A stretch of 64,000 nucleotides of DNA from Chitinophagales bacterium (lineage in GTDB: Bacteria > Bacteroidota > Bacteroidia > Chitinophagales > Chitinophagaceae). Every line of letters starts with the position of its first letter. The first letter of the stretch is position 1. Below, one piece after another: positions 58,598-58,808 of this stretch. The stretch covers positions 1 through 64,000 of the forward strand of contig JAATGJ010000110.1 in the NCBI GenBank assembly GCA_015654695.1, read 5' to 3'. The notes beneath the pieces are model-generated. The model worked only from the letters and a program-made list of their open reading frames with translations, made no database searches and was not told where the DNA came from. Position numbers and translations under genes: made by a program.

Positions 58598-58629
58598 TTT
58601 GGGTATAAACTTTCGCCCGCCTATTTTTG
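58598..58629 (+). promoter_or_regulatory. Promoter of the asd leader transcript
   Basis: TTTG (58598-58601), a 20-bp spacer and TATTTTTG (58622-58629) match the Bacteroidota consensus TTTG-N19/20-TAnnTTTG. Transcription would start a few bases before the leader ORF at 58638. Confidence 0.7.
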
Positions 58630-58637
58630 CAACCGAC

Positions 58638-58682
58638 ATGATAACAATGAAGCATACAAAACGCACGAAGAAACATTCCTGA
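58638..58682 (+). CDS. Putative asd leader peptide (attenuation)
   Basis: Short ORF of 14 codons and TGA encoding MITMKHTKRTKKHS. Ten of its 14 residues are Lys, Thr, Met or Ile (4 Lys, 3 Thr, 2 Met, 1 Ile), the four amino acids made from aspartate semialdehyde. It starts 9 bp after the promoter -7 element, so its mRNA has a very short 5' end. A second ATG in frame (58647) is an alternative start. Its last codons form strand 1 of the 1:2 hairpin in the attenuator that follows. It is too short to be a normal gene, but the codon content and the RNA structure fit a leader peptide. Confidence 0.6.
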   Translation: MITMKHTKRTKKHS

Positions 58683-58754
58683 TGGAAGGTTTGCTGTGTT
58701 ATGTATGTTACAACATAAGATTTTAGCAGGCCTTCCTTAACGGAGGGCTTTTTT
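58671..58754 (+). promoter_or_regulatory. asd attenuator: mutually exclusive RNA helices
   Basis: Strand 1 AAACATTCC (58671-58679) can pair with strand 2 GGAAGGTTT (58684-58692), 8 of 9 pairs, over the stop codon. Strand 2 extended, GGAAGGTTTGCT (58684-58695), can instead pair fully (two G-U) with strand 3 AGCAGGCCTTCC (58725-58736). Strand 3 can instead pair with strand 4 to form the terminator. A helper hairpin TTATGT/ACATAA (58699-58704/58713-58718) sits in the 2:3 loop. Stalling at Lys codons 11-12 would cover strand 1 and favour 2:3, letting RNA polymerase go on to asd. Confidence 0.65.
58728..58754 (+). terminator. Intrinsic terminator of the asd leader
   Basis: AGGCCTTCC (58728-58736) pairs with GGAGGGCTT (58742-58750) around loop TTAAC, and T runs from 58749 to 58754. 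It lies between the leader ORF and asd and points toward asd, not away from the upstream gene, which is on the other strand. It would stop the leader transcript 54 bp before the asd start. Confidence 0.75.
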
Positions 58755-58759
58755 ATTAA

Positions 58760-58793
58760 CCTCACCCCTTACCCCTATCCGGGGGAGAGGGGT
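58760..58793. repeat. Palindromic G+C-rich repeat between the asd terminator and asd
   Basis: CCTCACCCCTTACCCCTATC leads into GGGGGAGAGGGGT; ACCCCT (58771-58776) pairs with AGGGGT (58788-58793). The CCTCACCCC lead matches the paaC copy at 18139. No U-run follows, so it is not a second terminator. Confidence 0.7.
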
Positions 58794-58808
58794 AAAAACA
58801 AACAATAA

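Follow-up and report, generated by a model that had tools for sequence, protein, structure and literature searches.

A predicted lysine- and threonine-reading attenuator upstream of asd in the Chitinophagaceae

The aspartate-semialdehyde dehydrogenase gene (asd) of a Chitinophagales bacterium, whose product is required for the synthesis of Lys, Thr, Met, and Ile, is preceded by a short leader that we interpret, with a probability of nearly 90%, as a ribosome-mediated transcription attenuator sensing charged Lys-tRNA and, at asd, probably also charged Thr-tRNA. The case for it is built from the parts of the leader, their conservation and covariation among relatives, and the geometry of a translating ribosome relative to the helices. 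A sequence-only reading of the window (the whole 64,000-nucleotide stretch of DNA analyzed here) had made essentially this proposal, an asd attenuator read through Lys and Thr codons, and conservation and covariation now support that core claim at the level of sequence. The same comparisons place the anti-antiterminator in a different helix from the one first proposed, set aside Met and Ile, two of the four amino acids noted in the leader ORF, as signals, and show related leaders at another gene of the pathway.

Layout of the asd leader

The features of the leader are collected in Table 1. The product of the downstream gene scores 450 bits against the NCBIfam asd model (cut-off, 223 bits). The spaced pair of a TTTG element and a TATTTTTG box, which from its consensus we take to be a Bacteroidota promoter, agrees with the consensus promoter that had been called here; a TTTG element lies 17 to 22 nt ahead of a -7-like box before 54 of the 62 leaders described below. 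No sigma-70 promoter was returned by a terminator and promoter scan of the region, which does not cover the Bacteroidota promoter type. The leader ORF starts 8 nt past the -7 box, and direct reading gives the composition originally claimed for it, with four Lys, three Thr, two Met, and one Ile among its 14 codons.

Table 1. Features of the asd leader and the gene behind it, in window coordinates
Feature	Positions	Strand	Remarks
TTTG element of Bacteroidota-type promoter	58598-58601	+	Read from sequence
-7 box TATTTTTG of Bacteroidota-type promoter	58622-58629	+	20 nt after TTTG
Leader ORF MITMKHTKRTKKHS, 14 codons	58638-58682	+	Stop codon TGA at 58680-58682
Helix Ia, 5' strand CATACAAAACGCA	58653-58665	+	Codons 6-9 and the next base; pairs with 58695-58707
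Helix Ib, 5' strand AAACATTCC	58671-58679	+	Strand 1 of the sequence-only reading; pairs with GGAAGGTTT, one A.G mismatch
Strand 2 GGAAGGTTTGCT	58684-58695	+	12 bp with strand 3; GGAAGG core conserved
Helix Ia, 3' strand TGTGTTATGTATG	58695-58707	+	Pairs with 58653-58665
Strand 3 AGCAGGCCTTCC	58725-58736	+	Common to antiterminator and terminator
Intrinsic terminator 3:4	58728-58754	+	AGGCCTTCC-TTAAC-GGAGGGCTT at 58728-58750; six T at 58749-58754
asd, aspartate-semialdehyde dehydrogenase, 329 aa	58809-59798	+	ORF; NCBIfam NF011456 and TIGR01296 above cut-off

Helix Ia is interrupted in the window by a single A.A mismatch, and in the predicted fold of the window leader it joins helix Ib in one long hairpin. 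Strands 2 and 3 form 12 pairs, including two G-U pairs. The terminator was picked up by the terminator scan with 2 overlapping hits against a mean of 0.2 in shuffled sequences, and since the nearest long ORF upstream has the opposite direction, the terminator does not belong to that ORF.

Distribution of the leader

Relatives of asd were found in 140 of 148 related genomes, and the upstream DNA was read for 130 of these, the other ten being left out. The full arrangement of promoter, ORF, antiterminator, and terminator precedes asd in 62 of the 85 genomes from the family of the window, Chitinophagaceae, and in 0 of the 45 genomes from other families of the order; no leader was found in 23 of the 85 family genomes with asd (G007, G011, G012, G017, G020, G023, and 17 others). 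Scripts together with manual choice fixed the start codons and strand borders in the 62 leaders: the borders were set by hand in three leaders (G006, G008, and G029), G055 was retained with a terminator below the scan cut-off, in G069 the scan settled on a different site and the terminator was then picked manually, and G083 was assigned a GTG start. Carriers include Limnovirga soli and Niastella yeongjuensis, both from genera of the Chitinophagaceae, and Sediminibacterium roseum, together with MAGs labelled Flavihumibacter, Filimonas, and Parafilimonas, and typical leader peptides of relatives are MMTMKHTKRIKKHS, MNMMKHTKRIKKQFPLKEGA, and MNNTKHIKNTKKHISQREVA.

A covariance model of the leader (R1), whose alignment output covers 96 of the 130 loci and retains two chance rows, matched 154 of 254 family genomes and 67 of 101 genera at an E value of ≤5e-5. 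Across the phylum, matches at an E value of ≤0.001 occurred in 5 of 247 genomes, all five in the family of the window, and an earlier R1 search gave a best E value of 0.0033 outside the family. Sixteen weaker matches that we inspected (L155 to L170; E values of 0.0025 to 0.1) look by eye like unrelated terminators, with the exception of L169, which is described below. Flavobacterial terminators upstream of asd (L297, L305, L306, and L312) were likewise rejected as leaders, as by eye they follow the apparent end of an upstream gene.

Both short ORFs and terminators are frequent, and the same scan found a terminator-like site in 3 of the 45 asd upstream regions from other families, so that a chance arrangement, or an ordinary terminator that happens to follow a short ORF, deserves consideration. 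This explanation is refuted by the conservation and covariation of the element and by its gene specificity, as seen in the swap test and the R1 searches, and we regard it as having a negligible probability. The asd leader is conserved beyond chance.

Leader peptide and ribosome position

Across the 62 leaders the peptide has the core K-H-T-K-R-T-K-K. At the four Lys positions of the core, Lys is found in 50, 56, 56, and 52 leaders, the core ends with two Lys in 48, and at least four Lys are present in 55. Core position 6, a position not covered by helix Ia, has a Thr codon in 33 of 62 leaders (ACC in 11, ACA in 9, ACG in 8, and ACT in 5); selection on the residue would be expected to give such use of all four synonymous codons. 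RNA pairing accounts better for the conserved His, whose first base forms a C-G pair in 33 rows of the alignment and a U-A pair in 5 and stands unpaired in 22 of 64.

Leader starts keep a close spacing to the promoter. The -7 box, searched as a loose motif, lies within 30 nt of the start in 60 of 62 leaders, and the start codon falls 7 to 9 nt past the -7-like box in 48, suggesting that the leader message is probably nearly leaderless. The leader thus has a short ORF near its predicted transcription start, as judged from the conservation of the ORF and of the -7 box.

If the ribosome is taken to cover 15 nt in each direction from the P site, its footprint at the stop codon overlaps the core of strand 2 in 62 of 62 leaders, whether the stop codon precedes strand 2 (21 leaders) or is at or after it (41 leaders). 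With the A site on the last Lys of codons 5 to 14, the ribosome covers no more than 2 nt of this core in 61 of 62 leaders and so leaves it free. We also considered whether the Met and Ile codons are read. They occupy codons 1 to 4, ahead of any stall position that would open the helix, and a ribosome stalled there would leave helix Ia uncovered; such a stall should not signal, and we have rejected a reading of these codons on grounds of position.

These observations also bear on whether a metabolite-binding riboswitch, for example one for lysine, or a T-box might control the terminator, with the ORF incidental. A lysine-pathway gene preceded by an alternative-helix terminator is the kind of setting in which such an element could be looked for. 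Against it stand the constraint at the level of the peptide, visible in the synonymous Thr codons, and a stop codon position that sets the ribosome over strand 2 in every leader. Further, a scan of the whole window against 4,227 Rfam families gave 0 matches at gathering score, and the best weak matches in the region, at 19 bits, were to two amino acid leader families, Trp_leader (19.0 bits; gathering cut-off, 41) and Phe_leader (19.3 bits; cut-off, 55). Neither the lysine riboswitch nor the asd motif RF01732, both of which we take to be in the library, matched in the window at gathering score. We therefore consider a riboswitch or T-box highly improbable and retain the ribosome-mediated attenuator, with Lys very likely as a signal.

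Covariation and folding of the helices

The helices were compared across the 62 leaders with an alignment-free swap test, in which the duplex energy of segments from the same genome is set against that of swapped partners. Helix Ia, formed by the early ORF and the loop downstream of strand 2, had a mean energy of -13.2 kcal/mol against -9.7 kcal/mol when swapped (z = -11.5), strand 2 with strand 3 gave a z of -9.1, and strand 3 with strand 4 gave a z of -13.2. Kinship can inflate these scores; three control segment pairs that share this kinship gave z values of -0.3, -0.4, and -0.5. The ORF segment and strand 2 of helix 1:2, which the sequence-only reading had taken for the anti-antiterminator, gave a z of only -2.4. 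That helix is present in the window, where 8 of its 9 positions pair around an A.G mismatch, but family-wide it shows little covariation; the conserved anti-antiterminator is helix Ia, which had been missed. The intrinsic terminator with its U-run was called correctly, as the scan match, the six T, and the swap score for 3:4 all indicate.

Shuffle tests were run on the R1 alignment (the 62 leaders and two chance rows), for which the model made no use of the 2:3 pairing. Helix 2:3 was paired in 74.8% of cells against 72.6% in shuffles and 40 to 58% when slid, and its covariation score was above all 500 shuffles; two of five covariation measures for this helix do not exceed the shuffles, with 186 of 500 shuffles as high for pairs changed on both sides and 470 of 500 for further pair types. 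The fully paired 12-bp antiterminator originally described is accordingly real in the window, but across the family only its first 6 to 7 pairs are well kept, and the outer pairs are mostly lost beyond close relatives. Helix Ia was paired in 81.4% of cells against 72.8% in shuffles, with 58 cells changed on both sides against 24.7, in an alignment that is itself fitted to Ia. Helix Ib, the original 1:2, was paired in 66.7% of cells against 65.2%. RNAalifold on a MAFFT alignment gave the terminator as the sole helix, with changes on both sides in 7 of 9 pairs; the absence of Ia and 2:3 from this consensus is probably because they exclude each other and because indels shift Ia. The comparison of relatives that the earlier proposal had named as its own test has in this way come out in its favor, with the ORF and the alternative helices conserved and with 2:3 and 3:4 covarying.

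In one asd upstream region from a Flavihumibacter MAG (L250), strands 2, 3, and 4 are by eye all altered, from a GGAAGG/CCTTCC type to a GGGGC/GCCCC type, and both helices are kept.

Folding of the leaders fits the logic of an attenuator for the predicted co-transcriptional states, and not at equilibrium. Masking strand 2 gives the terminator in 62 of 62 leaders, and exposing it in an RNA that ends with strand 3 gives 2:3, again in all 62; Ia and the terminator form together in 60 of 62 when the full RNA is left bare. When the whole RNA is folded at equilibrium with strand 2 exposed, the terminator is preferred in 47 of 62 leaders and 2:3 in 15, so that the attenuator model requires 2:3 to be the first to form. 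Of the bare RNAs that end with strand 3, 31 favor 2:3 and 31 favor Ia, and Ia alone may thus not always block 2:3.

From these parts we infer ribosome stalling, a co-transcriptional order of events, and a response to amino acids, as follows. Transcription would start a few bases before the leader ORF, and a ribosome would initiate at once. When Lys and Thr are plentiful, the ribosome would reach the stop codon and cover strand 2, and upon its release codons 6 to 9 would pair again with the sequence on the 3' side of strand 2; with strand 2 covered or Ia refolded, strand 3 would be available to strand 4 for the terminator, and transcription would stop short of asd. When Lys or Thr is scarce, the ribosome would stall on codons 5 to 12 and cover the 5' strand of Ia, leaving strand 2 free to capture the newly made strand 3, and polymerase would continue into asd.

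A short conserved ORF could also serve in control of translation, and termination might lead to accumulation of an RNA of about 115 nt, such that this RNA or the peptide would act in trans and attenuation of asd transcription would be secondary. The conservation of mutually exclusive terminator and antiterminator helices argues against this, as do the recurrence of the leader at dapA, expected of a cis element, and a terminator-to-asd distance that among relatives ranges between 25 and 208 nt. We judge such a role improbable as the main function and continue with transcription attenuation in cis.

Leaders upstream of dapA, thrA, and hisG

The first lysine-specific gene of the pathway is dapA, and among the matches read it is the only other gene with the asd type of leader. 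All ten strong R1 matches away from asd whose neighbors were read lie before dapA, including the four from the first R1 search (one checked by NCBIfam). Twenty further loci among the matches listed for the 154 genomes, 14 of them from eight genomes with two hits (the second hits of G421 and G535 were left out), comprised 14 asd, 6 dapA, and no other gene. Among dapA upstream regions as such, the leader was present in 4 of 29 (one of 30 loci gave no start). The dapA copies (L151 to L154, L316, L319, L322, L324, L326, and L328) come from ten genomes in five genera.

In codons 5 to 13, the 62 asd leaders have 229 Lys and 99 Thr among 558 codons, and the ten dapA leaders have 43 Lys and 11 Thr among 90. 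This comparison speaks to a variant of the attenuator reading in which Lys alone is sensed and the Thr codons are incidental or structural. Lys is the prevailing residue of the asd leaders and persists at dapA, the control positions end in tandem Lys, and the overall Thr counts of the asd and dapA leaders do not differ significantly (P = 0.078), all of which would suit sensing of Lys only. Yet Thr at core position 6 is maintained in 33 of the 62 asd leaders through four synonymous codons, and a comparison by eye within the same genomes, from five genera, showed Thr at this position, directly before the tandem Lys, in 8 of 10 asd leaders and in 0 of 10 dapA leaders. We consider the Lys-only variant unlikely, and these patterns suggest that Thr is likely a second signal at asd.

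The gene thrA (assigned by NCBIfam) has a leader of another kind. In all 29 upstream regions analyzed (one of 30 loci was dropped), an open frame ends with at least four Thr in its last 14 codons, a property shared by 3 of 29 dapA upstream regions and 0 of 45 asd upstream regions from other families. The last 14 codons of the thrA frames contain 186 Thr, 73 Ile, and 2 Lys among 406, and 27 of the 29 leader ends are free of Lys. The leaders are L203 (G000:C181) and L204 to L232 except L220, with IITTTIITIRRGGL followed by a stop codon as an example of their ends; the stop codon mostly lies inside a small CAACCCGTTAAGGGTTG-type hairpin, and a CATAT...GGGC stretch recurs behind it. Inspection by eye showed no U-run terminator directly after this hairpin, and the mechanism may therefore differ. 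The three thrA leader loci scanned (L203, L218, and L231) had no Rfam match.

The asd, dapA, and thrA leaders are each rich in codons for amino acids of the regulated gene, and with Lys-rich leaders at asd and dapA and Thr/Ile-rich leaders at thrA, the leader codons follow the branches of the pathway. The dapA leader is possibly a duplication of the asd leader. We lean toward a wider picture of the Chitinophagaceae aspartate pathway, held with clearly less confidence than the asd attenuator itself, in which asd carries an attenuator reading Lys and Thr, dapA carries a Lys-reading copy that arose from the same element, and thrA carries an unrelated Thr/Ile leader. Ribosomes would then sense lysine through the asd and dapA leaders, both of them near-leaderless, and in each leader a single stretch of RNA would provide both the sensing codons and the anti-antiterminator.

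The exception among the weak R1 matches, L169 (G030:C120), lies upstream of hisG and encodes MKQTTHIHHHHLPIG, ending in a stop codon, with a hairpin and a T-run; it starts a few bases past a TATTTTTG box and is a classical histidine leader in the same family.

Relation to known systems and implications

The asd leader resembles the attenuators of the Escherichia coli trp and thr operons, in which a short leader ORF with codons for the end product (trpL and thrL) precedes the structural gene and mutually exclusive 1:2, 2:3, and 3:4 helices end in an intrinsic terminator. In the asd leader, the antiterminator 2:3 and the intrinsic terminator 3:4 are mutually exclusive in the same manner, and the part of the anti-antiterminator of trp/thr-type attenuators is taken by helix Ia. 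trpL has 14 codons, with the tandem control codon near its end, and the asd leader of the window likewise has 14 codons. Unlike trpL and thrL, the asd leader has Lys as its main control codon and a near-leaderless start, its strand 1 consists of the core codons themselves, and it precedes a single asd gene in a Bacteroidota family.

Structured RNAs or attenuator-like sequences before asd have been recorded elsewhere. The asd motif RF01732 is listed for Lactobacillales in PMC2864571, which also cites Cardineau and Curtiss (1987), a paper that by its title concerns attenuator-like sequences before the Streptococcus mutans asd. RF01732 comes from a different phylum and, assuming that the scanned library contains it, has no match in the window. 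The same source lists the Bacteroid-trp motif RF01692 for Bacteroidetes, a cis-regulatory candidate that concerns tryptophan by its name; it shares the phylum of the window, belongs by name to another gene, and, on the same assumption about the library, has no match in the window. An attenuator of Corynebacterium ilvB (PMC11109978) combines a uORF rich in the regulated residues, a terminator, and a complementary antiterminator; it is alike in these three parts and differs in serving branched-chain amino acids, in Corynebacterium only.

The sequence-only reading knew of no such leader for asd in Bacteroidota, and a full-text literature search, mostly of papers outside subscription, likewise found no description of one; two older papers, Lopatovskaya 2010 and Vitreschak 2004, could list Bacteroidetes attenuators. 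The mechanism is of a known kind, and the lysine-reading leader, its recurrence at dapA, and the near-leaderless start look new.

These leaders would offer a concrete route for the control of Lys and Thr synthesis in one Bacteroidota family, where the literature searched provided a single listed amino acid leader candidate for the phylum, identified by name (Bacteroid-trp). Similar leaders with different codons at asd and dapA of the same genomes, together with a third kind at thrA, amount to natural codon-swap experiments. The near-leaderless start raises the question of how transcription and translation could be coupled so early in transcription.

Between the terminator and asd, the window also has a hairpin with C-rich and G-rich arms at 58764-58793. 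Among the 130 asd upstream regions, a loose pattern for it matches G000 only, and one other copy, with two mismatches, is present in the genome of the window.
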